Source: Chryseobacterium luquanense | Lineage (GTDB): Bacteria > Bacteroidota > Bacteroidia > Flavobacteriales > Weeksellaceae | NCBI RefSeq assembly: GCF_026460945.1 | Contig: NZ_JAOVZV010000015.1 | Coordinates: 186,001-250,000, forward strand | Length of the DNA: 64,000 bases | Direction: 5' to 3' | Shown here: one piece after another, positions 5,757 to 35,123 of the stretch | Layout of the letters: every line of letters begins with the position of its first letter | Position numbering within the stretch: position 1 is the first letter of the stretch | Translations under genes and position numbers: made by a program | Notes under the pieces: generated by a model | Seen by the model: the letters and a program-made list of their open reading frames with translations, nothing else | The model's database searches: none | What the model was told of the DNA's origin: nothing

Positions 5757-5789
5757 AATGATTTATTTTTGCTCAAATTTAATAATTAA

Positions 5790-6419: not shown

Positions 6420-6436
6420 TACAGCAGCTGCAAAAA

Positions 6437-6493: not shown

Positions 6494-6514
6494 AAGAATG
6501 CAAGGCTTTAAAAA

Positions 6515-6962: not shown

Positions 6963-7017
6963 TTTACCTATTTATTTTAGTTCTAAAACAGCCCCTGAAT
7001 ACTATTTTCTATTGAAA

Positions 7018-10957: not shown

Positions 10958-10961
10958 ATCT

Positions 10962-11357: not shown

Positions 11358-11363
11358 TCAAAA

Positions 11364-19892: not shown

Positions 19893-20774
19893 TTACTTTT
19901 TTGTTCCCATAATCTGGTGAACATTTTTCTCGATATTCTGCGCAATGGTCTCCATTGGAATATCGTTTTCATCATTATTAAAAGGATCTTCAATTTCTTC
20001 AGCAATCAATTCCAAACTCATCAAAACATAATATACAAAAACAGTCAGCGGAATCATAAACAATCCAAGATTGATAACATACGCAATAGGCAAAGCTAAA
20101 ACATATAAAATGATAAACTTTTTAATAAATGAAGAGTAAGAATACGGAATCGGTGTGTTTTTAATTCTTTCACAACCGCCACAAACATCCAAAAAACCTG
20201 AAATCTGGGTGTCTAAATACAACATTTCAATATCTGAAATCTTTCCTTCTTTTTTAAGCTGGTGCAATTTATGAGTGAGATGGATAATCATATCGGTCGG
20301 TCCGTGACTTCTCAAAGATTTTTCAATTTCAGAATAATCCTCATCTAAAGCGAGCCTTGTCGATTCTTGCGAAAGATGTTTTGCCAAAAAATGTGGAAAA
20401 TATTTTAAATATCTTGCAATTTGATCAGCAGATTGTCGGTCTTCGGCAAGAATAATATTAATTTTTATGGCGAAATTTCTCGTGTCATTCACTAGTTTTC
20501 CCCAAAGTTTTCTTCCTTCCCACCATCTGTCATATGCAGTATTTGTTCTGAAAACCAATAACAAAGACAAAACAAAACCAAGCAGAGAGTGAATCATTCC
20601 AACATTGCTGACTTTAGATTTCGAGGTTAAATGAAGATATTCGATTTCCAAATATTGTATTCCGAAAGAATAAATTCCCATCAAAACCATCGTCGGAAAA
20701 AGGATTTTCATCGTGTCGCTTTTGTGTAAGCTGACCAATATTTTCAGGAAATGTTTTGTATTGTAAACTCTCAT
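19893..20774 (-). CDS. Bestrophin family ion channel
   Basis: A 293-residue membrane protein of the bestrophin/UPF0187 family, which forms pentameric ion channels (sodium- or chloride-selective in characterised cases). Diagnostic segments: IHSLLGFVLSLLLVFRTNTA followed by YDRWWEGRKLWGKLVND, and FIILYVLALPIAYVINLGLF as a later helix; the C-terminal ELIAEEIEDPFNNDENDI resembles the calcium-clasp region of animal bestrophins. Start MRVYNTKHFLKILV is preceded by a good -7 element. Its 3' end lies 70 bases from the methyltransferase start. Confidence 0.9.
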   Translation of the reverse strand: MRVYNTKHFLKILVSLHKSDTMKILFPTMVLMGIYSFGIQYLEIEYLHLTSKSKVSNVGMIHSLLGFVLSLLLVFRTNTAYDRWWEGRKLWGKLVNDTRNFAIKINIILAEDRQSADQIARYLKYFPHFLAKHLSQESTRLALDEDYSEIEKSLRSHGPTDMIIHLTHKLHQLKKEGKISDIEMLYLDTQISGFLDVCGGCERIKNTPIPYSYSSFIKKFIILYVLALPIAYVINLGLFMIPLTVFVYYVLMSLELIAEEIEDPFNNDENDIPMETIAQNIEKNVHQIMGTKK

Positions 20775-20791
20775 GGTTTGCGTGTCTTTTG

Positions 20792-20799
20792 CAAAGATA
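20792..20799 (-). promoter_or_regulatory. Putative -7 promoter element for the bestrophin gene
   Basis: Plus-strand CAAAGATA is TATCTTTG on the minus strand, matching TAnnTTTG. It lies 18 bases upstream of the ATG at 20774. No clear -33 partner was found, so the match is partial. Confidence 0.4.
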
Positions 20800-20854
20800 A
20801 AATATTCGGATTATTGTTTTCCGCAGAAATTTTAATTTTGGGATTAAATTTCTC

Positions 20855-21082
20855 TCGCAGATAAAGCTGGTGTCGCAGATTTTTTAGAATTTATTCGGTC
20901 ACGAATGCACGAAATTTTTTGAGTCATTTATTGAAGGCTTCATTTAAAATAAATAATAATTACAATTGTCCGTAATTTGTCATCATTAAGAATATTGTAT
21001 TTCTTTGCTAAGTTTACGTCTTTCGTACATTCGTGGCATTTTTCATAATTATCAGTGTAAATCTGTCCAATCAGTGGTAACT
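20855..21082. repeat. Extragenic repeat, copy A
   Basis: The 376-base gap before the cupin gene has layered repeats. A direct repeat TCGCAGAT occurs at 20855-20862 and 20873-20880. Inverted arms CACGAATGCACGAAA (20900-20914) and TTTCGTACATTCGTGGC (21021-21037) enclose about 105 bases. A tail with AATCTGTCCAATCAGTGG follows (21060-21077). The same arms and tail recur in the same order at 22050-22191. It may be a decayed dispersed element. Confidence 0.6.
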
Positions 21083-21150
21083 AATCCCTTCAAAATTTTT
21101 CCAAATTTCAAAAAAACACTATTTTTATTTCGCATTAAAAAACAAAACAG

Positions 21151-22032
21151 ATGATTCTCGAAAACGTGGATGTGGTCAGCGACATCAGTAAAGAAGATTT
21201 TCAGGAAAATTATTTCAAGAAGAAAAAACCTCTTCTAATCAAGAACTACGCGAGTCGCTGGGAAGCTTTCGACAAATGGAATTTTGATTTTATTAAAGAA
21301 AAAGCGGGTGAACAGGAAGTTCCACTCTACGACAATAAACCTGCGGATGCAAAGAAAAGTTCTGATGCACCAGTAACAAAGATGAAAATGAAGGATTATA
21401 TCGACACGATAAAATCCAAACCTTCTGATCTGCGTATTTTCTTTTACATCATCACCGACCGGCTTCCAGAATTGTTGAAAAACTTTACATATCCTGATTT
21501 GGGAATTAAATTTTTCAAGCGGCTTCCGACTTTATTTTTTGGTGGAAGTGATGCGCATGTTCTAATGCATTACGATGTTGATCTGGGAGATTTTATGCAC
21601 TTTCATTTTGAAGGAAAGAAAAGAATTTTGCTCTTTGACCAGAAACAGTCGAAGTTTTTATATAAAGTTCCGCTGTCAGTTCACACAGTTTATGATATCG
21701 ATTACGAAAATCCTGATTACGAGAAATTTCCGGCGTTGAAATACGCCAAAGGAATTGAAATTTTCATGGAACACGGCGATGCCCTTTTTATTCCCGGCGC
21801 ATTCTGGCATTTCAACAGATACTTGGAACCTGGTTTTTCAATGTCTCTCAGAGCTTTACCAAATAAACCTAAAGTTTTCGCGAATATGCTGTATCATGTT
21901 TTTATTATGCGTTATACGGATAAGATTCTGCGGAAATTATTTAAATCTGAATGGGTAGATTATAAGCAAAAATGGGCGTATGAAAAGGCAACGGAGGCTT
22001 TGGAAAAGCATTTAAGTAAAAATAAAAGTTAA
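21151..22032 (+). CDS. Cupin-like (JmjC/FIH-type) protein
   Basis: A 293-residue protein of the cupin_8 group, related to factor-inhibiting-HIF and JmjC oxygenases that use Fe(II) and 2-oxoglutarate. The N-terminal FQENYFKKKKPLLIKNYASR fits this family's opening, VLMHYDVDLGDFMHFHFEGK contains the HxD part of the iron-binding facial triad, and DALFIPGAFWHFNRYLEPGF contains the distal His. Likely a hydroxylase of protein or small molecule; substrate unknown. It is flanked on both sides by copies of one extragenic repeat, with no other genes in its unit. Confidence 0.82.
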   Translation: MILENVDVVSDISKEDFQENYFKKKKPLLIKNYASRWEAFDKWNFDFIKEKAGEQEVPLYDNKPADAKKSSDAPVTKMKMKDYIDTIKSKPSDLRIFFYIITDRLPELLKNFTYPDLGIKFFKRLPTLFFGGSDAHVLMHYDVDLGDFMHFHFEGKKRILLFDQKQSKFLYKVPLSVHTVYDIDYENPDYEKFPALKYAKGIEIFMEHGDALFIPGAFWHFNRYLEPGFSMSLRALPNKPKVFANMLYHVFIMRYTDKILRKLFKSEWVDYKQKWAYEKATEALEKHLSKNKS

Positions 22033-22049
22033 TCCTCCAATATTTTTAT

Positions 22050-22191
22050 GCCACGAATGCACTAATTTATATAAAATGATAAAATGATTTTATCGCAAAC
22101 CGAAATATCATTCGTGCATTCGCGGCAATTCCAACAGTACACAATTTATTTTTAATCATCCATAAAAAATCTGTGCAATCCGTGGGAAACC
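22050..22191. repeat. Extragenic repeat, copy B
   Basis: Inverted arms GCCACGAATGCACT (22050-22063) and CATTCGTGCATTCGCGGC (22109-22126), then a tail with AATCTGTGCAATCCGTGGG (22169-22187). The element order and sequence match copy A upstream of the cupin gene, but the enclosed spacer is shorter (about 45 bases). The two copies are in the same orientation, one on each side of 21151-22032. This gap holds no ORF that I can support. Confidence 0.6.
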
Positions 22192-22257
22192 AAATCACCA
22201 TTTTCCTCCTTCTTTTTTTATTCTTATTTTTACCAACCCAAATTTAAGTATATCTCA

Positions 22258-24846
22258 ATGGCAAAGGCGACGAAGAAAGAGACCCCGTTAATGACGCAGT
22301 ATAACACCATCAAGGCGAAATATCCTGATGCGCTTTTGCTTTTCAGAGTGGGTGATTTCTACGAAACCTTCGGTCAGGATGCCGTGAGAACTTCTCAGAT
22401 TTTGGGGATTGTTCTGACAAAAAGAGCGAATGGCGACGGTCATATCGAACTGGCCGGTTTCCCGCATCATTCGGTGGATTCTTATTTGCCTAAATTGGTC
22501 AGAGCCGGAATTCGTGTGGCGATTTGTGACCAACTGGAAGATCCAAAAACCGTCAAAGGAATTGTAAAACGTGGCGTAACAGAATTGGTGACGCCTGGAG
22601 TGACATTCAACGATCAGGTTCTGACTTCGAAAAAGAATAATTTCCTGCTTTCTCTTCATAAAGAAAAAGAAAAATACGGAATCGCTTTGGTCGACGTTTC
22701 AACGGGAGAATTTTTGGTGAGCGAAGGAAATTTAGATAAAATTTTACACATCATCAACACATTTGACCCGAGTGAAATTATTTATCAACGAAGCGTACAA
22801 ATTCCCGATCAGCTGAAAAACAGAAACGTTTTCAAACTGGAAGACTGGGCATATCAATATAACTTTGCCTACGAAAAACTGACAAATCAGTTTAAAACCA
22901 ATTCATTAAAAGGCTTTGGCGTTGAAGGTTTACCTTTGGCAATTACCGCAGCAGGAGCGATTTTCGCTTATCTGGTGGAAGATACCCATCATAAATTATT
23001 GGCGCACATCACCAAAATTCAGATTATTCCGCAGGAAGATTATCTGATGATGGATCATTTTACGCTGAGAAATCTCGAAATCGTTTATCCAAGCCATCCG
23101 AAAGGAAAATCTTTGTTGGATATTATTGATAAAACTTCTACGCCGATGGGTGGAAGATTATTGAGAAGACGAATTATTCTGCCTTTAAAATCTGTTGAGG
23201 AAATTGGTAGACGGCTTTCGTTAATTGACTTTTTAAATGAAAATGATCATTTAAAATATGAAATTTCACAATTATTAAGGGCGATCTCAGATCTGGATCG
23301 ATTGATGGGTAAACTTGCGGCAGAGAAAATTTCACCTAAAGAATTAGGTTATCTCCGTCAGAGTCTGATCAATATTCAGAAAATTAAAGGATTGCTTCAT
23401 CCTCACGCCGATGTCTTGGCTTGGTTGGAGCCTTTAAATTCATTAGATGACCTGATTCAGTTGCTGGAAAATCATTTGAATGAAGAACTTCCGGTCAATT
23501 TATCAAAAGGAAATGTCATCAAACAGAATATCTCTGAAGAGCTCGATCATTTGAGAGGTTTGCAAAATAAAGGGCGTGGTTTTCTGGACGAAATGTGTCA
23601 GCGTGAAGTGGAACGCACCGGAATTACCAGTCTGAAAATTGATTTTAATAATGTTTTCGGATATTTTATTGAAGTAAGAAATACCCACAAAGATAAAGTT
23701 CCAAGCGATTGGATCAGAAAGCAGACGTTGGTGAATGCAGAAAGATACATCACCGAGGAATTAAAAGAATACGAAAGTCAGATTTTAGGCGCTGAAGAAA
23801 AAATCAGTGTTTTGGAAAATCAGTTATACCGAAAAGTCTGTTCGGATACGATGATTTACATGGACAGAATTCAGGAAAATTCAAATATTATTGCGCAGCT
23901 TGATGTTGCAGTTGGTCTGTCTGAACTGGCGGTTTCTGAAAGTTATACCAAACCTGTTTTGAATGACGGATTTAAAATTGACTTAAAGGAAGCGAGACAT
24001 CCAATCATTGAAAATGCCCTTCCTTTGGGCGAAAAATATATTCCGAATGACATCTTTTTAGATAAAGATTCGCAGCAGATCATTATGGTAACCGGTCCCA
24101 ACATGGCAGGTAAATCTGCAATTCTGCGTCAGACGGCTATTGTATGTCTGATGGCTCAAATTGGGAGTTTTGTTCCTGCAAAACACGCTGAAATTGGAGT
24201 TTTAGATAAGATTTTTACAAGAGTTGGAGCTTCAGATAATATTTCTGCCGGAGAGTCAACTTTTATGGTTGAAATGAATGAGGCGGCATATATTTTAAAT
24301 AATATTTCAGACCGAAGTTTGATTTTATTAGACGAAATTGGTCGTGGAACTTCCACTTACGATGGAGTTTCAATTGCCTGGGCGATTGCGGAATATCTGC
24401 ATCAACATCCGACTCAGGCAAAGACTTTATTTGCAACGCATTATCATGAGTTGAATGAAATGACTGTGAATTTTGAGCGTGTGAAAAATTTTCACGTTTC
24501 TATTCAGGAGAATAAAGGAAATATTATCTTTTTGAGAAAATTAATTCCTGGTGGAAGCGAACATAGTTTCGGTATTCATGTTGCGAAATTGGCCGGAATG
24601 CCGTCAAAAGTTGTCAACAGAGCCAATGATATCTTAAAAACTTTAGAAGCCAGCCGTTCTCAAGGTGGTTCGTCTGAAGGCGTAAAAAGGGTGACTGAGG
24701 AAAATATGCAACTTTCTTTCTTTCAGTTGGATGATCCGGTTTTAGAAAATATCAGAGAAGAATTAACGAAAATCGACATTAATACTTTGACGCCGATTGA
24801 AGCTTTGATGAAATTGAATTCCATTAAAAAGATGATTGGGAAGTAG
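22258..24846 (+). CDS. mutS: DNA mismatch repair protein MutS
   Basis: An 862-residue ATPase that recognises mismatches and starts methyl-directed or strand-directed repair. The mismatch-binding loop GDFYETFGQDA (F-Y-E motif) is at residues 32-42, Walker A TGPNMAGKSAILRQTA begins at residue 612, Walker B is LILLDEIGRGTSTYDG, and FATHYHELNEM and the helix-turn-helix follow. Length is typical of MutS1. Start MAKATKKETPLMTQYNTIKA is standard. It is a single-gene unit; MutL is not in the window. Confidence 0.97.
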   Translation: MAKATKKETPLMTQYNTIKAKYPDALLLFRVGDFYETFGQDAVRTSQILGIVLTKRANGDGHIELAGFPHHSVDSYLPKLVRAGIRVAICDQLEDPKTVKGIVKRGVTELVTPGVTFNDQVLTSKKNNFLLSLHKEKEKYGIALVDVSTGEFLVSEGNLDKILHIINTFDPSEIIYQRSVQIPDQLKNRNVFKLEDWAYQYNFAYEKLTNQFKTNSLKGFGVEGLPLAITAAGAIFAYLVEDTHHKLLAHITKIQIIPQEDYLMMDHFTLRNLEIVYPSHPKGKSLLDIIDKTSTPMGGRLLRRRIILPLKSVEEIGRRLSLIDFLNENDHLKYEISQLLRAISDLDRLMGKLAAEKISPKELGYLRQSLINIQKIKGLLHPHADVLAWLEPLNSLDDLIQLLENHLNEELPVNLSKGNVIKQNISEELDHLRGLQNKGRGFLDEMCQREVERTGITSLKIDFNNVFGYFIEVRNTHKDKVPSDWIRKQTLVNAERYITEELKEYESQILGAEEKISVLENQLYRKVCSDTMIYMDRIQENSNIIAQLDVAVGLSELAVSESYTKPVLNDGFKIDLKEARHPIIENALPLGEKYIPNDIFLDKDSQQIIMVTGPNMAGKSAILRQTAIVCLMAQIGSFVPAKHAEIGVLDKIFTRVGASDNISAGESTFMVEMNEAAYILNNISDRSLILLDEIGRGTSTYDGVSIAWAIAEYLHQHPTQAKTLFATHYHELNEMTVNFERVKNFHVSIQENKGNIIFLRKLIPGGSEHSFGIHVAKLAGMPSKVVNRANDILKTLEASRSQGGSSEGVKRVTEENMQLSFFQLDDPVLENIREELTKIDINTLTPIEALMKLNSIKKMIGK

Positions 24847-24881
24847 ATTGAGTTTAAAGGTCGGAGTATTGTTGAGAATGA

Positions 24882-25325
24882 TTATTCAATATTCATTGTT
24901 AGAGGAATTTTGACAATGCTTCTTACGAAGTTTCTATCATGTTTTGCTGGAATCCACTTACTTTTAATCCGTTTCATGGCTTTTTCGACAGCAAGGTTAA
25001 AACTTATATTTGAGCCAATAACTTGAACTTTCTTCACGCTTCCATCACGTTCTACAGTGAAATTAAGCATTGCTTTATGGGTGTTTTCTCCTTTTTTTAA
25101 TTTAACAGATTCCAATGTAATAAGATTCTCAATCTTTTTGGTGAAAGCTTCCATGCCATCGGGAAAGTAAGCTTCATGATCGGGAAAATCGTGACATATT
25201 GTAGCAGTTAAAGAGTTTTCAATTTCTTTTGGTATTGATAGAGGTGTGGGAAGAGACGAAATTTCTTGTCCGAAAATCAATCCGTTAAAAATGATAGTTG
25301 ATAATAAAATTAAATATTTTTTCAA
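24882..25325 (-). CDS. Secreted TonB C-terminal-domain-like protein
   Basis: A 147-residue protein with signal peptide (KKYLILLSTIIFNGLIFGQ). The mature part has the TonB-C-like pattern of these Bacteroidota proteins: EAYFPDGMEAFTKKI, then LNFTVERDGSVKKVQVIGS, then KRIKSKWIPAKHDRN. Unlike TonB there is no long linker and no retained anchor, so it is likely soluble in the periplasm. It is the last of four tandem paralogs on this strand, six bases after the next. Whether it contacts a TonB-dependent receptor is unknown. Confidence 0.75.
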   Translation of the reverse strand: MKKYLILLSTIIFNGLIFGQEISSLPTPLSIPKEIENSLTATICHDFPDHEAYFPDGMEAFTKKIENLITLESVKLKKGENTHKAMLNFTVERDGSVKKVQVIGSNISFNLAVEKAMKRIKSKWIPAKHDRNFVRSIVKIPLTMNIE

Positions 25326-25331
25326 AATAAT

Positions 25332-25772
25332 TTAGGACTTAGACATTGTTAAAGGAATTCTAAATCTGCTTCTCACAATTTCACCTTTGTATAGAGCTGG
25401 TTTCCATTTATCTTTAATGCTTCTGACTGCTTTTTTTACTGCGGCATTAAAGCTTTCATTTGATCCGGTAACTTTCAAGTCGGTCATGCTTCCGTCTTTT
25501 TCAATTGCAAAACTAATCATTCCTTTAAGATCATTTTCTCCATTTTCAGGTTGAACAGAATCCAAAATAATTGCTTTTTCAAATTTGGTTCTGAAAGCTA
25601 AAATTCCTTCCGGAAAAACGGGCATCTGATCAGGATTTTCGTAAATTTTATTAACATCTACAGGAGCATTCTTATCTTCTTTTTCAATTTGAGGAACAGC
25701 AGGAGATGAAGTAACTTGTCCGAAAATAATCCCGTTAAAAATAAGTGAAATAATAAAAATAAATTTTTTCAT
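25332..25772 (-). CDS. Secreted TonB C-terminal-domain-like protein
   Basis: A 146-residue paralog of the preceding protein: signal peptide KKFIFIISLIFNGIIFGQ, then MPVFPEGILAFRTKFEKAI, ISFAIEKDGSMTDLKVTGS and RSIKDKWKPALYKGEIV. Signal peptides and core strands of the two genes are alike, pointing to a recent tandem duplication. A six-base gap separates the two ORFs, so they are presumably co-transcribed. Confidence 0.75.
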   Translation of the reverse strand: MKKFIFIISLIFNGIIFGQVTSSPAVPQIEKEDKNAPVDVNKIYENPDQMPVFPEGILAFRTKFEKAIILDSVQPENGENDLKGMISFAIEKDGSMTDLKVTGSNESFNAAVKKAVRSIKDKWKPALYKGEIVRSRFRIPLTMSKS

Positions 25773-25847
25773 GATTAAGTTTTCTCAAAAATAGAAAATA
25801 TTTGCAAAGATTTATGATTTGGATAATTGTGAGTTGAATAAATTTTT

Positions 25848-26273
25848 TTATTTAAAACTTATTGTCAAAGGTACTTTGAATTTATAACGAATTTTTTCTC
25901 CATTGAGTTCAGCCGGAATCCATTTCTGTTTAATTTTTGAAATGGCTCTTATAGCTTCGGTGTTAAAACTTTCGTTAGTCCCAAAGGCTTTAATTTCTAC
26001 CAGAGAACCCTCTTTGTCTACAATAAAAATTATTTCGCAGGTTTCTTTTTCTAAGTTAGTGATAACTTTTCGAACTTTAAAATTCTTACTGATGAGATTC
26101 TGAAATTCGGTATTTCCAAGAGAAAAAACAGCTGGTTTCTCGGCTTCTATTTTGATCTTACCATTCTTTTGAATTAATGCTAATTCATTAAGTTCTATTG
26201 TTCCATTGATGGCTTCTTGCCCGAAAATGAAACAAAAAAAGAGTAAAGAAAATAGCGTTATAAGTTTTGTCAC
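25848..26273 (-). CDS. Secreted TonB C-terminal-domain-like protein, divergent copy
   Basis: A 141-residue paralog with signal peptide (TKLITLFSLLFFCFIFGQ). The core CEIIFIVDKEGSLVEIKAFG and AISKIKQKWIPAELNGEKI are kept, but the F-P-x-G motif found in the neighbours is replaced by SLGNTEFQNLISKNF. It lies 75 bases upstream (in transcription order) of 25332-25772 and is the most divergent member of the cluster. Confidence 0.7.
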   Translation of the reverse strand: MTKLITLFSLLFFCFIFGQEAINGTIELNELALIQKNGKIKIEAEKPAVFSLGNTEFQNLISKNFKVRKVITNLEKETCEIIFIVDKEGSLVEIKAFGTNESFNTEAIRAISKIKQKWIPAELNGEKIRYKFKVPLTISFK

Positions 26274-26305
26274 AGGTAAAGTTTTCGCTAAGATAAACTT
26301 TAGAA

Positions 26306-27184
26306 CTAATATTTTTTACTCGTTAAAGGAAAATAGAATAAATAGCGAACAGGTTTTCCGCTTAATTTTGCGGGTTTCCATCGTGCAAATATTCCTCTTA
26401 CGCCTAATTCTGCAGCTTCAACATGCTTTTTATTGCTTCCGACTGCAACAACATTTCTTACATATCCTGTTTTTTCAACAACAAAATAAAGACGGGTATC
26501 TACTTTTTCGTTATTTTTTAAATCTAATGTTTCTATGCTTTCAAAATATTTTCTCTTAAAAGCCTCCATCCCACCGGGAAATTCAGGTTTTTCATCAGCA
26601 CTTATTACAGCATCTTTGATATCTATTTTTGATCTTACATACTCTAAATCAGGGATTCCTGAAGGAACTGAACCTTTGTTTGCAACCGCATTATTGGTTT
26701 TTTCTGAAATATTTTTGGTTTCCATACCAGAATTAGATTCTTCTAAAGGAAAATAAATAAGGTAACGAACCGCTTGATTATTAACTAAAGCAGGTTTCCA
26801 TCTTTCAAAAACACCTTTTATGGCAGTTTCTGCTTCTTTAAGGTCACTTTTGTTTGATCCAATAGCGGTGAAACTCTTTATATATCCTGTTTTTTCAATA
26901 ATAAAATATAAGCGGGTGTCGTTTGCTTTTTTCTTTTTGGAATCTGACGATTTTAAACTTTCAAAAAAACGGTTTTTAAATTTTTCTATTCCACCAGGAA
27001 ACTCCGGGAGTTGATCTGCTTTCGTAACAACATCTTTTAAATCTATTTTGCTTTTTACGATTTCGTAATCGGGAATTTGGTTTATTTCACTAACCGTGCC
27101 CTGATTTATGCTGTCTCCATCACGGTTTTGAGCAGACGCAATTATTCCGAAAAACAGACCGAAGAAAAGAATCGCCTTTTTCAT
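26306..27184 (-). CDS. Secreted protein with two tandem TonB-C-like domains
   Basis: A 292-residue member of the same family with signal peptide (KKAILFFGLFFGIIASAQ) and an internal duplication. Domain 1 contains LPEFPGGIEKFKNRFFES and GVFERWKPALVNNQAVRYL; domain 2 contains KPEFPGGMEAFKRKYFES and GIFARWKPAKLSGKPVRYL. Each domain is about 100 residues, joined by a Ser/Asn-rich linker near residue 155. It is the first gene of the four-gene run in transcription order and the likely operon leader. Two-domain forms of this family are uncommon in my experience. Confidence 0.75.
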   Translation of the reverse strand: MKKAILFFGLFFGIIASAQNRDGDSINQGTVSEINQIPDYEIVKSKIDLKDVVTKADQLPEFPGGIEKFKNRFFESLKSSDSKKKKANDTRLYFIIEKTGYIKSFTAIGSNKSDLKEAETAIKGVFERWKPALVNNQAVRYLIYFPLEESNSGMETKNISEKTNNAVANKGSVPSGIPDLEYVRSKIDIKDAVISADEKPEFPGGMEAFKRKYFESIETLDLKNNEKVDTRLYFVVEKTGYVRNVVAVGSNKKHVEAAELGVRGIFARWKPAKLSGKPVRYLFYFPLTSKKY

Positions 27185-27425
27185 TAAATTTAATTTTAGT
27201 AATACTGATTCTGAGATAATTGTCAGATGTATAGTTAATGAAGAGTTATCAAACTTAATACCAATAATTCACTAAATCCACATTGGTTTTCGTGTACTAC
27301 CTTAATCAGAAATTAGTTTAAAAAAATGAAATTCTGATTTTAAATTGTAAGCAGATATATTTTAATTAACAAAATTTAACAAGTTGTTTTTCATTGGTTT
27401 AAAAATGCTTTCTGTAATTTTGAGT

Positions 27426-27923
27426 ATGAAGAAAATTTTTAGTTTAATTGTATTGATTTTCAGTGCTTCACTCTGTTATTCACAAGAGCAAGTTATCGTA
27501 AATGATATACCGATGATTAAATATGAACAGCTGGAAAATAAAATCAAGGAAGAAAAAGATGTTTTATTGGTTCTTAATTTCTGGTCGACGACTTGTGCAC
27601 CTTGTGTGAGGGAGCTTCCGGATTTTATGGAGGTTAACAATAAATTTAAAAGTAATCTGAAATATAAAATGCTTTTGGTTTCTTTAGACCGAGCAAAAGA
27701 TAAAGAGCGCGTAATTGAATTCATCAAAAAGAAAAACCTGACTGCTGAAGTGGTTTTATTGGATGATATCAAAAGAATGAATACGTGGATTCCAAAATTT
27801 GAAAAAAACTGGGACGGAAATATTCCGGTAACGATTGTCTATAAAAATGGAGAAAAAGTTCACTTTAATGATGGTGAAATGTCGAAAACTGAACTCGAAA
27901 ATGTTATCACAAAAAATTTATAA
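27426..27923 (+). CDS. Secreted thioredoxin-like protein, TlpA type
   Basis: A 165-residue thioredoxin-fold protein with signal peptide (KKIFSLIVLIFSASLCYSQ). The active site CAPC lies at residues 57-60 in NFWSTTCAPCVREL, the usual TlpA/ResA context, so it probably reduces disulfides in the periplasm. The ATG at 27426 gives the signal peptide; an in-frame ATG at 27384 would spoil it. TAATTTTG (27415-27422) resembles a -7 element but lies too close to the start codon to be used. Its neighbour 3 bases downstream is also thioredoxin-like. Confidence 0.82.
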   Translation: MKKIFSLIVLIFSASLCYSQEQVIVNDIPMIKYEQLENKIKEEKDVLLVLNFWSTTCAPCVRELPDFMEVNNKFKSNLKYKMLLVSLDRAKDKERVIEFIKKKNLTAEVVLLDDIKRMNTWIPKFEKNWDGNIPVTIVYKNGEKVHFNDGEMSKTELENVITKNL

Positions 27924-27926
27924 ATC

Positions 27927-28580
27927 ATGAAAAATATCAAAATTTTAATGACCGCGACAATAGTTGGTCTAAGTTTGTTGAGTTTTACAAAAACAAATCA
28001 TAAACACGAAGAGCCAAAAACCAAAACGGCTTCTGCAAAAGGTTACGAAGTAGGAGATTTTGCAGCTGATTTTAAGCTAAAAAATGTAGACGGAAAAATG
28101 GTTTCTTTAAGCGATTTTAAAAAAGCAAAAGGCTTTATCGTAGTTTTTACCTGTAATCATTGTCCGTATGCGAAAAAATATGAAGGCAGAATCATAGAGC
28201 TCGATAAAAAATATAAAGAAGCTGGTTATCCTGTAATCGCCATTAACCCGAATGATCCGAATGTACAACCTGAAGATGGTTTCAAAGAAATGATTTCAAG
28301 AGCAAAAGATAAAGGTTTTACATTCCCTTATTTGGTGGATGAAGGACAGAAAGTGTATCCTCAATATGGTGCTACAAAAACGCCTCACGTTTTTATTCTT
28401 CAAAAAGAAGGTGCGAAAAATGTTGTAAAATATATTGGTGCAATCGACAATAATTACGAAGATCCTAACGATGTTTCAGAGCGTTATGTGGAAGATGCAA
28501 TGGATGCTTTACTAAAAAATGAACCGGTAAAAATGACAAAAACCGTTGCAATCGGCTGTACAATTAAGGTAAAAAAATAA
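27927..28580 (+). CDS. Thioredoxin family protein with CNHC active site
   Basis: A 217-residue redoxin-family protein of the AhpC/TSA type, with a hydrophobic N-terminal segment (IKILMTATIVGLSLLSFTK) that acts as a signal or anchor. GDFAADFKLKNVDGKMVSLS precedes VVFTCNHCPYAKKYEGRI, where C76 and C79 form a CxxC site, and YPQYGATKTPHVFIL contains the cis-Pro loop. Such CNHCPYA proteins occur widely beside TlpA-like proteins. Three bases separate it from the previous gene, so both may act on the same periplasmic thiols. Confidence 0.8.
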   Translation: MKNIKILMTATIVGLSLLSFTKTNHKHEEPKTKTASAKGYEVGDFAADFKLKNVDGKMVSLSDFKKAKGFIVVFTCNHCPYAKKYEGRIIELDKKYKEAGYPVIAINPNDPNVQPEDGFKEMISRAKDKGFTFPYLVDEGQKVYPQYGATKTPHVFILQKEGAKNVVKYIGAIDNNYEDPNDVSERYVEDAMDALLKNEPVKMTKTVAIGCTIKVKK

Positions 28581-28601
28581 TTAAAAATTATATTCAATGC
28601 T

Positions 28602-28635
28602 AAACGAAATCTAAAAAAAGGTTTCGTTTTTTATT
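28602..28635. terminator. Bidirectional terminator
   Basis: AAACGAAA (28602-28609) and TTTCGTTT (28622-28629) with a loop and a T-tract on the plus strand. It lies between the thioredoxin-like gene and the convergent small membrane protein. Confidence 0.65.
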
Positions 28636-28861
28636 TAAATGCTTGAGAAAGGAAAGTGAAAAGCCATTTTAAAATGAAAAGAATCAACGTAAACGAAGCC
28701 ATCGTTAAAAAACCATAGAATATTCTTAAAAAATGTGTTTTTACATCATCATCAGATTGTTTTATTTTTAATTTTGCCATGGTGATGAAACCCACATAAT
28801 ACAGTACAAGCAAAGCAACGGGAATGAATAGATATAAAATAAAGGTTTCTAATTGTGCCAT
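28631..28861 (-). CDS. Small two-helix membrane protein
   Basis: A 76-residue protein with two hydrophobic helices, FILYLFIPVALLVLYYVGFI and FLRIFYGFLTMASFTLILFI, joined by a polar loop (KLKIKQSDDDVKTH). Probably an inner membrane protein. No family recognised. The 47-base divergent spacer to the DUF2809 gene contains no convincing promoter. Its 3' end overlaps the bidirectional hairpin. Confidence 0.6.
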   Translation of the reverse strand: MAQLETFILYLFIPVALLVLYYVGFITMAKLKIKQSDDDVKTHFLRIFYGFLTMASFTLILFILKWLFTFLSQAFK

Positions 28862-28908
28862 AGATTATCAGTAATTTTTGTAAAATTAAATCTAAAAAAT
28901 AAATTCAA

Positions 28909-29298
28909 ATGATGCGTATAAAATTTAGTTTAAAATATTTTTTAATCACAATCCTCATTTTCTTTGCTGAGGTCTTAATTGCCACAGTTTTAAAAGATAA
29001 TTTCTTTATCAGAGCTTATTTGGGAGACGTCATTGTAGTGATGTTGCTTTACACTTTTGTAAAAAGCTTTTTAATAGTAAACGACACAAAATTAATCCTC
29101 GGAATTTTTGTGTTTTCCTGTTTGGTGGAGTTTGCCCAGTTTTTCAATATTGCAGAAAAATTAGGCTTCCAACCGGGAAGCCTAATGTATATAGTTATCG
29201 GAAATTCTTTCTCGTGGATTGATATTTTATGTTACGGTATAGGTTGTTTGATTCTTTATCTTTTGATTATTAAATCTAATCAGAAAAAAAACTTTTAG
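28909..29298 (+). CDS. DUF2809 family membrane protein
   Basis: A 129-residue inner membrane protein with about four helices (YFLITILIFFAEVLIATVLK, YLGDVIVVMLLYTFVKSF, LILGIFVFSCLVEFAQFFNI and WIDILCYGIGCLILYLLII). The pattern RAYLGDVIVVMLLY, FLIV, CLVEFAQ.F and SWIDILCYGIG matches DUF2809 as I know it. Two adjacent ATGs (28909, 28912) are possible starts. Function unknown. It is convergent with the YARHG lipoprotein downstream. Confidence 0.75.
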   Translation: MMRIKFSLKYFLITILIFFAEVLIATVLKDNFFIRAYLGDVIVVMLLYTFVKSFLIVNDTKLILGIFVFSCLVEFAQFFNIAEKLGFQPGSLMYIVIGNSFSWIDILCYGIGCLILYLLIIKSNQKKNF

Positions 29299-29369
29299 TT
29301 TTCAGAAAATAAGTTATTTCAAATATCTAATTATCTATCAACTAACAACTAAAACCCAACAACAACCTA

Positions 29370-30290
29370 CTATCTTCCAAAAGAATCATATTTATCTTCC
29401 GCATATTTTATAAAACGGTTTAGTAAAGCCACATTGTCTTTTTCCATCGGAGAAAGTTCGCTATCAACATTGTTTGAAACCGGAATATACCAATCAGTTT
29501 GCTCAAAAAAGTTTCTGTACGTCTGTTTTTTGAAAGAATAACCATGTCTTGCGAAAACAGAATTTTTAATGATTTCCATGTCGAGTTTTCGAAGGTTTTT
29601 GATGTCTTTTTCGCTCAGTTTTTGTTTGGAAGCATTGATTTTAAAAACGGCATCAGAAGCAATTCTGTTTTTAGATTGAGTGTACGTTTCGGTTTTACCT
29701 GTTTCTTCGTCGGTGTATTTTTCTTTAAAATCTCTTGGGTTTTCCCAATCAATTAATTCAGAATTTTGATCCAACATAAAATTCGGATTGTAAACAAACT
29801 CTTTTTTGATCAACTTTAAATTTTTTAAAGACGCTTTTACGGCAGATTTATTAAAGGCAGTCCATTTTCCTGTAATGCTGTCGTTTTTAAGCTTAACTTC
29901 AAATCTGCCATCGGTTTTATCATTTCCCGGTTCATCCAAAATAAAAGATTGAGAACTTTCGTTGAAAATCCCTCTGAAAGGTCTTTGAGTTCCGTTCACA
30001 ATACTTTGTCCGTACACAGAATCCTGGGTAATTCTGTTGATTTTTAAAGACAGTCTTTTGATATTTATTCCTTCATAATCTTCGTCAACTTCATTATCAT
30101 GCATCATCTCTTTTCCGGCAAATTCTCCGGTGTAGATTCCATAATACTCTTTATGAACTTCTGGAATGACGACTGAATCTTTTTTAGCAGTTAAACTGTC
30201 TTTAGATTTTTCTTCGGTTGTAACGTCTTTTTTACAGCTTGTCAAACCGATTGCGAAAAGGGCAATTAAAGTAAATTTTAAAATTTTCAT
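29370..30290 (-). CDS. YARHG-domain lipoprotein
   Basis: A lipoprotein of 306 residues starting at 30290: MKILKFTLIALFAIGL precedes the lipobox LTSCKKD. The C-terminal YARHG domain is seen in KNSVFARHGYSFKKQTYRNF and EQTDWYIPVSNN, with SPMEKDNVALLNRF behind it. YARHG domains are extracellular or periplasmic and of uncertain function. The frame is open upstream to 30473 but that extension overlaps the next gene and lacks a signal peptide, so I rejected it. Five bases separate it from the DUF2306 gene upstream. Confidence 0.8.
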   Translation of the reverse strand: MKILKFTLIALFAIGLTSCKKDVTTEEKSKDSLTAKKDSVVIPEVHKEYYGIYTGEFAGKEMMHDNEVDEDYEGINIKRLSLKINRITQDSVYGQSIVNGTQRPFRGIFNESSQSFILDEPGNDKTDGRFEVKLKNDSITGKWTAFNKSAVKASLKNLKLIKKEFVYNPNFMLDQNSELIDWENPRDFKEKYTDEETGKTETYTQSKNRIASDAVFKINASKQKLSEKDIKNLRKLDMEIIKNSVFARHGYSFKKQTYRNFFEQTDWYIPVSNNVDSELSPMEKDNVALLNRFIKYAEDKYDSFGR

Positions 30291-30295
30291 ATTGA

Positions 30296-30934
30296 TTAAA
30301 TGTGCTTTTTTGTGATTAAATATTCTATTAAAATAATGTTTGGAATCCAACCCAGCCAAGCAATAATTTGGTAAACATCCATTGGATTTGGGTGGAATAA
30401 ATATACAATAATTACTTTCCACATTCTCAAAGTGATGGCAGAAATTGTGAGTGCGAAACTTCGCCACATCCATTGTTTGTGTTCTTTAAATTTCTTTTGT
30501 TTGGCTAATTGATATGCTTTGAAAGTTGAAAACCACCATAAACAGCCCAAAATCACAAATGAAATTTTAGAAAGAAAACCTCCGTTAGCAAAGATTCCCA
30601 TGTAAATTCCTGAAGGTGCTGCGAGAATTAGAATCAGGAAAATGTAAATTTTCCCTGCGTTTTTGTGGAATTTTTTTAAGCCAAAATCTTTTCTTAGAAT
30701 GGCTAAAAATCCTGCCAATAAAACAAAAATGCTTGTGTAAACGTGAGTATAGAAAAAGTAAAGATATTCCGGCCTTTCAACGACTTCAGTTTGTTTAATC
30801 ATTAAAAAACTGACATTAGTATCTAAAGGAATATACTCTAAAGTGATCTTCAGCATGAGCCAAAAGAAATACCCGAATCCTGTGATGAGAAGAATTTTTA
30901 AAACGGACGAAATATTTTTTTTGACTGAAAGCAT
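30296..30934 (-). CDS. DUF2306 family membrane protein
   Basis: A 212-residue polytopic inner membrane protein, about six helices, including VLKILLITGFGYFFWLMLKI, FFYTHVYTSIFVLLAGFLAI and the conserved HKNAGKIYIFLILILAAPSG and HKQWMWRSFALTISAITLRM. The two His-containing motifs, K-x-H-x-x-x-G and H-x-x-W-M-x-R, are typical of DUF2306, perhaps a heme or quinone site. Function unknown. It sits between the TonB-C-like paralog and the YARHG lipoprotein, all minus strand with gaps of five bases or fewer. Confidence 0.82.
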   Translation of the reverse strand: MLSVKKNISSVLKILLITGFGYFFWLMLKITLEYIPLDTNVSFLMIKQTEVVERPEYLYFFYTHVYTSIFVLLAGFLAILRKDFGLKKFHKNAGKIYIFLILILAAPSGIYMGIFANGGFLSKISFVILGCLWWFSTFKAYQLAKQKKFKEHKQWMWRSFALTISAITLRMWKVIIVYLFHPNPMDVYQIIAWLGWIPNIILIEYLITKKHI

Positions 30935-30938
30935 TTAT

Positions 30939-31331
30939 TTAATCTTTAACAAAAGTAATTTCAACAGGTAACCTATATGTAGAATCTATTGGTTTACCAT
31001 TTAGCTTCTTCGGAATCAATTCGAATTTGTTCATTTCGTTGATTGCTCTTTCCGTCTCATTATTCATGGAAACATTTGTTCCTGTTGTTTTTATGTTAGT
31101 GATTTTTCCTTCTGATGTGACAATGAATGTGACTTCGGACTTTACTGTTCCTTTTCCGTTGACTTTATCCATGTCAAAAACTTCAGAAAACTTTTGTCTG
31201 AAACTATACATTTCTTTAAGATGAGGAGTGTCATAAATTTTATGAACTTTCTCGCTTTTTGAAAGGCTTTCTTCTTGAGAGAAAATTTTTCCGCAACTCA
31301 TTAGTATAATGAAAATAAAGAGTTTTTTCAT
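30939..31331 (-). CDS. Secreted TonB C-terminal-domain-like protein
   Basis: A 130-residue paralog of the 24.9-27.2 kb cluster, with signal peptide (KKLFIFIILMSCGKIFSQ). The strand motifs EVTFIVTSEGKITNIKTTG and EMNKFELIPKKLNGKPID match, although the helix start reads LKEMYSFRQKFSEVF without F-P-x-G. The gene lies 10 bases downstream of the flavoprotein and 4 bases upstream of the DUF2306 gene, so it probably belongs to that run of minus-strand genes rather than to the cluster. Confidence 0.68.
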   Translation of the reverse strand: MKKLFIFIILMSCGKIFSQEESLSKSEKVHKIYDTPHLKEMYSFRQKFSEVFDMDKVNGKGTVKSEVTFIVTSEGKITNIKTTGTNVSMNNETERAINEMNKFELIPKKLNGKPIDSTYRLPVEITFVKD

Positions 31332-31341
31332 CCGAAATCTT

Positions 31342-32544
31342 TTATAGATTATTCAAATCCTGCGCAATCAACCATGCTTCACTCCAGCAAGCCTGAAAGT
31401 TAAAACCACCGGTTAAGGCGTCTATATTTAAAACTTCTCCGGCCACGTAAAAGTTAGGCAAAATTTTCGAAGACATATTTTTAAAATTAATTTCCTTTAA
31501 ATCTACACCTCCTGCAGTTACAAACTCATCTTTAAAAGTCGATTTTCCTGTAACCTGAAATTTCTTTTTGCATAAATTTTCCAAAATCGTGTGCATTTCT
31601 TTTCCTGAAATATTCGCAATTTGTTTATTTAAATCAACCTTTGAAACTTCCAAAATTCTCTGCCAAAAGCGATTCGTTACCTCAAAAATTTTCGATTGTC
31701 CGATAGATTTCTTCGGATTTGACTGTTTAAAATTCTGGAATAACTCTTCCGCCTCATCAATATCTTTCGAAATAAAATTAACCTGAATTTCAAAATTGTA
31801 TTTTACTTTTGCCAAATTAATCGCTTCCCAAGCCGAAATTTTCAAAATAGCAGGTCCGGAAAGTCCCCAATGCGTAATCAATAATGGTCCGCTTTCTTCC
31901 GTTTTTAATTTTGGAATGGAAGTTTCTGCCATTTCAAAACTTGTCCCTAAAAGATCTTTCAGCAAATCATCTTTAATGTTAAAAGTAAATAGAGAAGGAA
32001 CTAAATCAATGATTTTATGACCTAAATTTTCAATCATTTTTAAAGACTTCGGTGAACTTCCTGTCGTGTAAATGACAAAATCAGCTTCAAAATCTCCTAA
32101 ACTTGTTTTCACAACATATTTTTCATCAAGCTTTTCAATTTCTTTTACCGAACATTTGGTTTTAACTTCAACATTTTTCTGCTGAATTTCATTCTGAAAA
32201 GTATTGATAATCGTCTGCGAAGAATTGCTTTCAGGGAAAACTCTGTTGTCCTTTTCTATCTTCAACGAAATTTTTCGTTTTTCAAACCAATCCATTGTAT
32301 CTCCCGGCTGGAATTTGGTGAAAACACTTAATAATTCCTTATTTCCGCGCGGATAAAACTGAACTAATTCTTTTGGGTCAAAACATCCATGAGTAACATT
32401 GCATCTTCCGCCTCCCGAAATTTTCACTTTCTGAAGTACATCAGAATTCTGTTCGAGAATGGTGATTTTATATTTCTTTTCGTCAAGATTTGCTGCACAG
32501 AAAAATCCTGCTGCACCGCCTCCAATAATGATAATTTGCTTCAT
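31342..32544 (-). CDS. NAD(P)/FAD-dependent oxidoreductase, HI0933/BaiN family
   Basis: A 400-residue flavoprotein. The Rossmann dinucleotide site IIIGGGAAGFFCAANL is at the N-terminus, followed by the family hallmark VKISGGGRCNVTH near residue 41. The C-terminal VTAGGVDLKEINFKNM and NFYVAGEVLNIDALTGGFNFQ (shortened here) complete the FAD domain. HI0933-like proteins are of unclear substrate; related enzymes act on steroids or phenolics in gut bacteria. Start at 32544 is the only one giving the GxGxxG strand at residue 4. Confidence 0.88.
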   Translation of the reverse strand: MKQIIIIGGGAAGFFCAANLDEKKYKITILEQNSDVLQKVKISGGGRCNVTHGCFDPKELVQFYPRGNKELLSVFTKFQPGDTMDWFEKRKISLKIEKDNRVFPESNSSQTIINTFQNEIQQKNVEVKTKCSVKEIEKLDEKYVVKTSLGDFEADFVIYTTGSSPKSLKMIENLGHKIIDLVPSLFTFNIKDDLLKDLLGTSFEMAETSIPKLKTEESGPLLITHWGLSGPAILKISAWEAINLAKVKYNFEIQVNFISKDIDEAEELFQNFKQSNPKKSIGQSKIFEVTNRFWQRILEVSKVDLNKQIANISGKEMHTILENLCKKKFQVTGKSTFKDEFVTAGGVDLKEINFKNMSSKILPNFYVAGEVLNIDALTGGFNFQACWSEAWLIAQDLNNL

Positions 32545-32577
32545 AATTATTTAATCTTATGCTGAAGATTATTTTTG

Positions 32578-32585
32578 CAAAACTA
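32578..32585 (-). promoter_or_regulatory. Putative -7 promoter element for the flavoprotein gene
   Basis: CAAAACTA on the plus strand is TAGTTTTG on the minus strand, matching TAnnTTTG 34 bases upstream of the ATG at 32544. No clear -33 partner. Confidence 0.35.
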
Positions 32586-32690
32586 CAATTTTTATAAACC
32601 ATCTTATTTGAGTAATTTTGAGGATTATAATTTTTGAATTTTTAAACGAAATTATTAACTACAAAAGTGTTTTTCTCATTATCTACTCAG

Positions 32691-32758
32691 TTTGTCATTC
32701 CGTAGGAATCTCAGCAGAGTTTTGAATAATGTTGTTTAGATTCCTACGGAATGACAAA
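32691..32758. repeat. REP-like palindrome, copy 1
   Basis: A perfect 21-base inverted repeat: arms at 32691-32711 (TTTGTCATTCCGTAGGAATC plus T) and 32738-32758 (its exact reverse complement), with a 26-base loop. A related element, with a shorter stem, is at 39669-39750. GC content and shape suggest a dispersed extragenic palindrome like those seen in many flavobacteria. No T-tract follows. Confidence 0.7.
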
Positions 32759-32821
32759 CATTGTAAATGCTTAAATTAAATGGATAATATTCTTAAGGTC
32801 ATATTTTAAAACAAAATTTTA

Positions 32822-33316
32822 ATGATTTTCTACCATACATTTGAAGTTCGCTGGAGCGACCTTGACGCCAATAAACACCTTGCCAATTCATCTTATGTGC
32901 AATATTGCGCACAAACGAGAATGGCTTTTATGAAAAAAGAAAGAATGGGAGTTACCCAAATGAGCCGCTGGGGAATTGGTCCGGTAATTATGCACGAAAG
33001 ATTCTCCTTTTTTAAAGAAATTTTTGCTGACCAAAAAGTAATCGTTAGTTTAGAAATCGACGGATGTGCAGAAGACGCTGCAATTTACCGTTTTGTACAT
33101 AAATTTTATCTTACTGATGGTTCACACTGTGCAACTTCAGAAGCAACCGGCGTTTGGATTGATACGATGTTGAGAAAAATGACTTCGCCACCGGATGATG
33201 TCGTTGAAGCAATGAATAAATATAAAACAGCTGAAACCATTCTAATGACAAGAGAAGATTTTAAAAAACTTCCTTTCCGTCCGGAAAATATAGATCCGGC
33301 AATTTTTAATAAATAA
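32822..33316 (+). CDS. Acyl-CoA thioesterase, hotdog-fold 4HBT type
   Basis: A 164-residue hotdog-fold protein. The catalytic region is RWSDLDANKHLANSSYVQY; the Asp-Leu-Asp-x-x-x-H segment is the 4HBT/YbgC-FadM signature. Hydrolyses acyl-CoA or acyl-ACP thioesters in the cytoplasm; chain-length range unknown. The tail REDFKKLPFRPENIDPAIF is extended compared with minimal YbgC proteins. Start at ATG 32822 (MIFYHTFEVRWSDLD) fits the family. It precedes thiL by 74 bases. Confidence 0.82.
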   Translation: MIFYHTFEVRWSDLDANKHLANSSYVQYCAQTRMAFMKKERMGVTQMSRWGIGPVIMHERFSFFKEIFADQKVIVSLEIDGCAEDAAIYRFVHKFYLTDGSHCATSEATGVWIDTMLRKMTSPPDDVVEAMNKYKTAETILMTREDFKKLPFRPENIDPAIFNK

Positions 33317-33390
33317 ATGATCATTGATAAATAATGATTGATTTTTTGTCATCATTTATCAATTATCAACCATCAATTATATAAGAATTT

Positions 33391-34455
33391 ATGTTTGAAG
33401 ATAAAGAACCAGAATTAACGCCCATTTCAAAACTAGGAGAATTTGGCTTAATTAAACACCTTACTCAATTTTTCCCATTGTCCAATGAATCTTCGGAAGT
33501 TGGAGTAGGAGATGATGCCGCAGTCATCAATCCGGGAAACAAAAAAGTTGTTTTAACGACCGATGTTTTGGCTGAGGGAGTTCATTTCAATTTGGGATAT
33601 GTTCCTTTGAAGCATTTAGGGTATAAAGCTGTTGTGGTAAATCTTAGCGATATTGCAGCAATGAATGCAACACCGACTCAGATTTTAGTTTCTCTTGCAG
33701 TTTCGAACCGTTTTCCGGTGGAAGCTTTAGAAGAATTGTATTCCGGAATTCAGGCGGCTTGTGGAAGATATAAAGTCGATTTGATCGGTGGCGATACGAC
33801 GAGTTCCAACGCAGGATTGGTGATGAGCATTACCGCTGTCGGAATTGACGATGAAGAAAATATCGTGAAAAGAAGTGGCGCAAAACCAAACGACTTGCTT
33901 GTTGTGAGTGGAGATTTGGGCGGAGCTTACATGGGGCTTCAGATTTTGGAAAGAGAACATGCCGTTTTCTTGGCAGACCCAAATATGCAGCCTGAAATGG
34001 AAGGTTTCGACTATATTTTGGAAAGACAATTGAAGCCTGAAGCGAGAACCGACGTAAAAGGAATTTTAGAACAATTGGATATCAAACCAACGTCTATGAT
34101 TGATATTTCAGACGGTTTGGCTTCGGAAATCCTACATCTTTCTGACCAGTCGAAAGTAGGTTTCAGACTGTATGAAGAAAAAATCCCGATGGATAATCTG
34201 ACGATTACAACGGCCGATGATTTGAATTTAAATCCTGTAATGACGGCTTTGAGCGGTGGTGAAGATTATGAATTGCTGTTCACGATTGCTTCAGAAGATT
34301 TTGATAAAATAAAAAACCATCCGGATTTTACTATTATCGGTCATGCTGTTGAAAAAGAAGAAGGGAATTTTATGGTAGCAAGAGGCTCTAATCAATTGGT
34401 AGCGTTGACCGCACAAGGGTGGGACGCTTTTTTAAGCAATCAGCAAAACGATTAA
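33391..34455 (+). CDS. thiL: Thiamine-monophosphate kinase
   Basis: A 354-residue ATP-dependent kinase converting thiamine phosphate to thiamine diphosphate, in the PurM/SelD-like family. The Mg/ATP site GVGDDAAVINPGNKKVVLTT is near residue 38, LAEGVHFNLGYVPLKHLGYK and NLSDIAAMNATPTQILVSLA follow, and the C-terminal ISDGLASEILHLSDQS and LSGGEDYELLFTI motifs complete it. Length is normal. No thiamine riboswitch was seen upstream. Confidence 0.93.
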   Translation: MFEDKEPELTPISKLGEFGLIKHLTQFFPLSNESSEVGVGDDAAVINPGNKKVVLTTDVLAEGVHFNLGYVPLKHLGYKAVVVNLSDIAAMNATPTQILVSLAVSNRFPVEALEELYSGIQAACGRYKVDLIGGDTTSSNAGLVMSITAVGIDDEENIVKRSGAKPNDLLVVSGDLGGAYMGLQILEREHAVFLADPNMQPEMEGFDYILERQLKPEARTDVKGILEQLDIKPTSMIDISDGLASEILHLSDQSKVGFRLYEEKIPMDNLTITTADDLNLNPVMTALSGGEDYELLFTIASEDFDKIKNHPDFTIIGHAVEKEEGNFMVARGSNQLVALTAQGWDAFLSNQQND

Positions 34456-34572
34456 AATTTAATTTTAAATATTGTGAAGCAACTGCATTTTTTTGTAGTG
34501 GTTTTTTATTAAATTAAAAATATAGCAAATTTATAAGTTTAGACATAAATTGTATTAAGCTAATTACTAATT

Positions 34573-34824
34573 ATGAAGGATCTTTTTGAGTTCAGGGCAT
34601 CTATTAATAATGATAATTTTCATTTTACAGATGAGATGACTGATCATTTTATTAAACTTATAGAATCAAAATCGCTTTTTTGGGGAGGTGGATATGGTGA
34701 TAATTATATGCAAGGAAGTTTGTATTGTGATGAAAATTTACATACCGAAATTGTTGCGTATTTTCAAAGATTAAATGATAACATCAAAGTTGATATAAGC
34801 ATATTCGGAATTTCTAAAATTTGA
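34573..34824 (+). CDS. Small protein, weakly YggL-like
   Basis: An 83-residue soluble protein. The segment FIKLIESKSLFWGGGYGDN and the following MQGSLYC resemble the G-G-G core and strand of the YggL/DUF469 family, which associates with the ribosomal large subunit in E. coli; the fit is weak and partial. It ends with an in-frame TGA, and the next ORF, in the same frame, begins 9 bases later with no ATG. It is possibly the first part of a fused protein or the first of two coupled genes. Confidence 0.5.
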   Translation: MKDLFEFRASINNDNFHFTDEMTDHFIKLIESKSLFWGGGYGDNYMQGSLYCDENLHTEIVAYFQRLNDNIKVDISIFGISKI

Positions 34825-34833
34825 TTTGATTAT

Positions 34834-35070: not shown

Positions 35071-35075
35071 TATAA

Positions 35076-35104
35076 AAATCCAGCTCATTTTTTGAGCTGG
35101 ATTT
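35076..35104. terminator. Bidirectional terminator
   Basis: AAATCCAGCTCA and TGAGCTGGATTT around a T-rich loop; a strong 12-bp stem between the CPCC gene and the convergent pepT. Confidence 0.75.
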
Positions 35105-35123
35105 CAATTTTTATATAAAATTT

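Follow-up and report, generated by a model that had tools for sequence, protein, structure and literature searches.

The C-terminal domains (CTDs) of TonB and TolA bind their targets by strand addition, according to PMC12204202, and PMC10907165 describes an ExbD-binding D-box adjoining the anchor of TonB. The anchored TonB of Chryseobacterium luquanense (genome of 4.35 Mb) combines a cytoplasmic N-terminus and an N-terminal anchor with 31 prolines in 248 residues, and its gene lies beside an exbB-like gene and two exbD genes (which account for two of the genome's four ExbD matches); locus L079 encodes a second anchored TonB-like protein. A periplasmic TonB domain reportedly inhibits FecA and FhuA transport in E. 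coli, going by the title of Howard et al. 2001. A literature search, in which subscription papers were mostly out of reach, gave no account of stand-alone secreted TonB tails from Bacteroidota. Five candidate proteins of this type, W1–W5, are encoded in the C. luquanense genome on a different contig from its TonB, in a 64,000 nucleotide stretch that was analyzed as a whole (the window, to which coordinates refer unless a locus is named). Their anatomy was read correctly in the original prediction, and their rarity was over-read.

Four of the genes are neighbours on the minus strand and are transcribed in the order W4-W3-W2-W1, convergent to mutS (22258..24846, + strand), with gaps of 32, 75 and 6 bases. 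W4 (26306..27184) encodes a predicted secreted protein of 292 residues, W3 (25848..26273) one of 141 residues from a GTG start, W2 (25332..25772) one of 146 residues, and W1 (24882..25325) one of 147 residues from a TTG start. The fifth gene, W5 (30939..31331, − strand, 130 residues), is 3.8 kb from this run and adjoins a gene for an HI0933-like flavoprotein (31342..32544, − strand); the open reading frames agree with the positions first proposed for all five. The mutS and flavoprotein genes, both assigned by Pfam, mark by gene order the opposite borders of a conserved place. Each W protein comprises a leader, 7–32 residues and one TonB C-terminal domain, with the exception of W4, which has two (residues 51–148, 26741..27034, and residues 193–291, 26312..26608, both − strand). 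An own-family profile scores these at 118.1 and 121.1 bits, respectively, and W1 at 126.9 bits over residues 44–147. The internal duplication claimed for one protein is that of W4, whose halves (W4N and W4C) are 54% identical (BLAST, E 9e-40). The sequence TAAGTTTG, 73 bases before W4, is a candidate −7 box by its resemblance to that of Bacteroidetes. Fur-like control of the cluster was rejected; the best site in 20001–36000 matches at 14 of 19 positions, and none of the six best sites is before W4.

All five leaders end before a glutamine and so fit the signal peptidase I Q-rule, which according to PMC5837995 holds on average for 71% in Bacteroidetes. The sites are NGLIFG^QEIS in W1 (25269..25325), NGIIFG^QVTS in W2 (25719..25772), FCFIFG^QEAI in W3 (26220..26273), GIIASA^QNRD in W4 (27131..27184) and CGKIFS^QEES in W5 (31278..31331), all on the − strand. 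A glutamine follows the hydrophobic core in every one of the 53 rows of alignments A4 and A5 under a loose form of the rule, and we infer that W1–W5 are cleaved by signal peptidase I and released into the periplasm. Lipidation of W5 was considered and is unlikely because the leader cysteine is absent from several relatives that keep the glutamine. The mature parts have no second hydrophobic segment (19-residue hydropathy never exceeds 1.42 in the A4 and A5 rows), and from sequence there is no uncleaved N-terminal anchor in W1–W5 of the kind found in TonB. A Pro-rich linker that could span the periplasm is also absent, with 3–12 prolines in each mature W protein compared with 31 in TonB, and on these points, as on the secretion signals, the original prediction stands.

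Two of the proteins exceed the Pfam TonB_C (PF03544) cut-off of 24.6 bits, W2 at 28.2 bits and W4 at 32.2 bits in two stretches, and W1, W3 and W5 fall below it at 22.8, 23.9 and 20.1 bits (E 6e-5 to 9e-4). The NCBIfam TonB model gives sub-threshold matches to W1 and W2 and does not list W3–W5. In BLAST comparisons with the CTD of the anchored TonB, run within a set of 14 domains from the same genome, W2 is the highest-ranking match of the five (42%, E 2e-28), followed by W3 (36%, E 4e-24), W1 (34%, E 5e-20), W5 (42%, E 6e-20), W4C (32%, E 1e-17) and W4N (33%, E 7e-15). These comparisons indicate that the resemblance is one of homology and not of chance, and that W1–W5 are paralogs of the anchored TonB. 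W5 lacks FPxG and has leucine in place of a tryptophan, both of which are kept in the other W proteins, and it has matches to DUF6705 and DUF6818 below the Pfam cut-offs. No M56/BlaR membrane protease domain was found in W1–W5 by Pfam.

The models of W3 and of the C-terminal half of W4 have the TonB-CTD fold, which sequence similarity predicts for W1, W2 and W5 as well. The AlphaFold2 model of W3, built from 38 sequences, has a mean pLDDT of 82 with blocks of 93–98 over residues 51–140. Its top VIA-align match in the PDB is H. pylori TonB (5lw8; Z 9.1, 80 residues, 2.5 Å), tied with the P. aeruginosa TonB bound to FoxA (6i97_D; Z 8.8), with 6sly at Z 8.2 and TolA at Z 7.6 (1lr0) and 7.2 (2x9a), and the 22 best rows are all TonB, TolA or FusB domains. 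Foldseek returned nothing for this model at E≤0.001; its best match is at 5.9e-3, and TonB or TolA domains fill the top eight rows. Nine PDB sequences were listed by a profile search, eight of them TonBs, with 6sly the best (E 4.5e-4). The W4 model, built from 15 sequences, is weaker (mean pLDDT 72.9), and the same order of elements is seen twice in it. For the C-terminal half, 5lw8 (Z 7.8) and TolA 1lr0 (Z 7.2) are tied; the N-terminal half, which was barely probed, matches HasB at Z 2.3. The TonB-C identity proposed from the sequence is thus upheld by BLAST for all five, by Pfam for W2 and W4, and by structure comparison for W3 and the second half of W4; neither of the outcomes named beforehand as contrary to it was encountered, the modelled fold being no mismatch and the leaders not appearing as uncleaved anchors.

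There are no exbB or exbD genes adjacent to the W cluster, and one motor set is present elsewhere in the window; the nearest ExbD match (Pfam PF02472, 10980–11348) is 13.5 kb from W1. This match belongs to a + strand group (10253–12242) in which a TolQ/ExbB-like gene (10253–10957) is followed by the ExbD-like gene and a gene for an anchored TonB/TolA-like protein of 292 aa (11364–12242); the last was named by reading of the sequence and is missed by the TonB-C profile. By sequence, the combination of no anchor, no linker and no adjoining motor genes argues against a normal TonB role and would leave a free binding domain. Only 3 of 33 short TonB-C copies are within 10 kb of an ExbD match, all three in one genus, in 16 genomes chosen for many copies (G069 and G153 were added as their clusters seemed near tonB), a count that omits one copy interrupted by a stop codon, frames longer than 175 aa such as the two-domain copies of G069, and one ExbD row below the cut-off. 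A general positional association of secreted TonB-C genes with ton genes was rejected on this count.

The genome encodes numerous potential partners, with 33 matches to the plug domain of TonB-dependent receptors (32 above the cut-off), and a TonB box is recognizable upstream of the plug in 27 of the 30 plug domains examined. No receptor gene is near the cluster; among the plug matches listed on the contig, the closest is about 44 kb away. The conserved TTxLNEL after the W3-type leader was considered as a mimic of the TonB box and rejected, since the N-termini of 53 secreted TonB-C proteins score no higher than 4.0 in a motif model trained on the segments upstream of the 30 plug domains, 27 of which score at least 14.5 and three below 0. 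The model is strict, in that it scores its own training set, and at least four of the N-terminal segments had been trimmed to ≤10 residues and so were hardly probed.

The reading that we place first, although tentatively, is that the W proteins are soluble periplasmic TonB-CTDs, uncoupled from ExbBD, that bind receptor segments by strand addition. It is placed first because TonB-type CTDs bind in this manner, because the genome has 33 plug matches with 27 recognizable boxes, and because of the inhibition said to occur in E. coli. Signal peptidase I would cut the leader and leave the W proteins free in the periplasm, where ExbB/ExbD would be unable to pull on them, and an extended peptide would join the small sheet as an added strand, as with TonB. 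The likeliest ligands would be the TonB boxes, or adjoining periplasmic segments, of some of the approximately 33 receptors, and by holding, shielding or competing for these segments the W proteins may tune which receptors are energised. The divergent surfaces of the lineages could give each its own partners, and the two domains of W4 might engage two ligands at once. A simple decoy is disfavoured because the surfaces vary by type, few copies are near ExbD and no receptor gene is nearby. The absence of FPxG and the tryptophan from W5 and the disrupted W2 of C. formosus also count against the first reading.

A second reading, which we rank behind receptor-segment binding by a small difference, is that these are re-purposed modules that keep the TonB-CTD fold, with the lineages binding other periplasmic or outer membrane partners and having no role at TonB boxes. 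The secreted types no longer have many of the residues that are invariant across 18 TonBs; the loss is greatest in the W4-type, whose conservation is unlike that of TonB, and each type has its own set of fixed residues and a type-specific conserved surface (in a comparison set without the W5 of the window). Against re-purposing, the TonB core positions (Phe, Pro, Gly, Gly, Trp, Pro, Pro) and the terminal strand are mostly kept, and some relatives are near ton genes. The lack of receptor neighbours and the conserved place between housekeeping genes favour it, and a loose precedent is Anabaena SjdR, a TonB-like protein that does not act in schizokinen transport and that is anchored and without a TonB-like periplasmic domain, according to PMC8262864 and PMC8597729.

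Rates of change also bear on re-purposing. The secreted TonB-C genes are under purifying selection and mostly change faster than their neighbours, which is in favour of new partners. In comparison with Chryseobacterium formosus (locus L086, the closest locus from a named species, in which W3 is 91% and the two-domain W4 93% identical), dN/dS is 0.16 for W3 and 0.24 for W4; among the neighbouring genes it is 0.016 for mutS, 0.015 for HI0933, 0.04 for YARHG, 0.07 for DUF2306, 0.10 for each of two thioredoxin-like genes and 0.18 for DUF2809. The W1 and W5 pairs (dN/dS 0.38 and 0.30; dS 0.71 and 1.5) are probably not orthologs. Between loci L098 and L100, five secreted TonB-C copies have dN/dS of 0.06–0.30 and seven neighbours 0.015–0.095. 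The notion that these proteins evolve much faster than TonB itself was weakened: mean identity is 87% among 18 TonBs, 49% among 24 W3-type and 61% among 15 W4-type proteins, but these species sets are unmatched and the gap is smaller in matched pairs. The L098 and L100 strains are identical at 118 of 125 positions (94%) of the TonB end, 94 of 115 (82%) of the W3-type and 93 of 115 (81%) of the W4-type; between C. luquanense and the L098 strain the figures are 90/125 (72%) for the TonB end and 59/114, 86/114 and 74/115 (52–75%) for W3, W4C and W1, the compared TonB stretch taking in some linker in each case. Synonymous divergence from L086 is 0.15–0.32 across 25848–29298 (W3, W4, both thioredoxin-like genes and DUF2809, with YARHG at 0.31), as against 0.81 for mutS, 0.73 for DUF2306 and 0.51 for HI0933, which may reflect exchange of the block between species.

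The place itself is shared widely. From one to four secreted TonB-C genes are beside mutS in 24 of 27 loci (L086–L109) from Chryseobacterium, Kaistella and Halpernia; of the other three, L112 has one gene, by the flavoprotein gene only, and L110 and L111 are of BlaR type. Because W3-type queries were used in this search, these counts do not give the number of genomes without the genes. At least one secreted TonB-C gene is present in the same stretch in all 13 loci of a set picked for having matches (L066–L078; the L077 contig stops before mutS). A tree of 70 domains and 109 columns, in which the bootstrap is not settled and the deep forks are open, groups the W4-type (99/97), the W1/W2-type (97/97) and 23 of 24 W3-type rows (100/95), and the W5-type rows are not all in one group. 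From this grouping, the W1–W4 run seems to comprise three lineages that have gained and lost copies, together with a W1/W2 duplication, rather than one fresh expansion. A recent duplication within W4 was considered and not upheld, the halves being only 53–54% identical with dS >1. Two of the 15 W4-type proteins in alignment A5 have two domains (those of C. luquanense and C. formosus) and 13 have one, and single-domain counterparts in L098 and L100 are closer to the C half of W4 (80% and 71%) than to the N half (55% and 51%), which would fit either fast change of the N half or an older fusion that was lost elsewhere.

The domain is common beyond this place. C. luquanense has 17 TonB-C profile matches (E≤0.001), the highest among 40 sampled Chryseobacterium genomes, all of which have 6–17, and at least one match is present in 57 of 60 family and 59 of 80 phylum genomes, anchored TonBs being included in each of these counts. 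The local expansion had been described as unusual, which is only partly right and is weakened by the presence of such genes at 24 of 27 loci and of several matches in all 40 genomes. A second C. luquanense cluster (L013, 8158–10390) has four leader-bearing relatives by a miaB-like gene, two of which score weakly and one of which apparently has two domains, and L083–L085 are arranged similarly. Twelve clusters outside the genus were also inspected, chosen mostly for match density, with genes named by reading and ExbD by search. In the family relative G069 (L151), two secreted proteins with two TonB-C domains each (5584–6276 and 6393–7202) have exbB-exbD-exbD-tonB and a PstS-like gene upstream of them, which is the strongest indication from position of a Ton connection; in L145, two secreted TonB-C proteins are about 5 kb downstream of an operon of the exbB-exbD-exbD-tonB type. 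L152 and L153 adjoin mutS, and a class relative in another order (G113; L143, 5024–8189) has a run of five TonB-C-like proteins, three with two matched stretches.

An improbable third reading is that the W proteins act in BlaI/BlaR-like envelope signalling, with TonB-C as a shared sensor or ligand module. C. luquanense does have an M56/BlaR-type membrane protein ending in TonB-C, encoded beside a blaI-like gene (L015, 1943–4119; both named by reading), secreted TonB-C copies are near blaI-BlaR-like pairs in L150 and L154, and the BlaR type of L110 and L111 points the same way; however, no such gene is among the open reading frames of 20000–36000, and the 24 mutS-side loci have no TonB-C protein of BlaR-type size.

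We give similarly little weight to neutral duplication, in which a decaying family would have no function of consequence. The number of copies beside mutS ranges from one to four, short open frames of the family occur in L072 and L074, and the assembly of C. formosus has a W2 relative disrupted across three frames (L086, 7376–7886), so a copy can be dispensable. Drift is nonetheless at odds with the dN/dS values of 0.06–0.30, well below 1, in the seven pairs taken as orthologous, and with the W3 lineage having been kept beside mutS across three genera. That the leaders stay uncleaved, making short inner membrane TonBs able to meet an ExbB/ExbD motor, is very improbable: the leaders are hydrophobic and the TolQ/ExbB-like and ExbD-like genes (10253–11357) are only 13.5 kb from W1, but glutamine occupies the expected +1 position in all 53 rows, and with 7–32 residues before the domain and no Pro-rich linker the proteins would be unable to span the periplasm.

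The genome has approximately 33 TonB-dependent receptors to few anchored TonBs, and conserved, secreted, motor-free TonB tails are a candidate regulator of how energy is divided among the receptors. It is conceivable, although doubtful, that natural multi-copy soluble tails gate receptor energisation by occupying TonB boxes or N-terminal extensions. They would then select the receptors that can be driven by the few anchored TonBs, and would add a level of regulation to the Ton system in Weeksellaceae, perhaps also in other Bacteroidota. If the W proteins do not bind TonB boxes, they would be an example of fold re-use, and genes named TonB on the basis of this domain alone would be misnamed.

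Among known systems, the W proteins are most like the TonB CTD (PF03544; 5lw8/6sly and 6i97) in predicted fold, core residues and sequence homology, and differ from TonB in lacking the inner membrane anchor, the Pro-rich linker and adjoining motor genes, so as to be free domains, one of them in tandem. TolA domain III (1lr0, 2x9a) resembles the W3 model in overall fold, although W3 is nearer to TonB and W4 is tied, the sequence similarity is to TonB, and the W proteins have neither the anchor nor the long domain II of TolA. The M56/BlaR-type protein of L015 has a homologous TonB-C domain (35% to W3) but is a membrane protein beside a blaI-like gene, whereas the W proteins consist of a leader and TonB-C only. 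The periplasmic TonB of E. coli, judging by the title of the 2001 report, is likewise a free periplasmic TonB domain; it is a laboratory construct of that organism's own TonB, whereas the W genes are natural, diverged and present in multiple copies.
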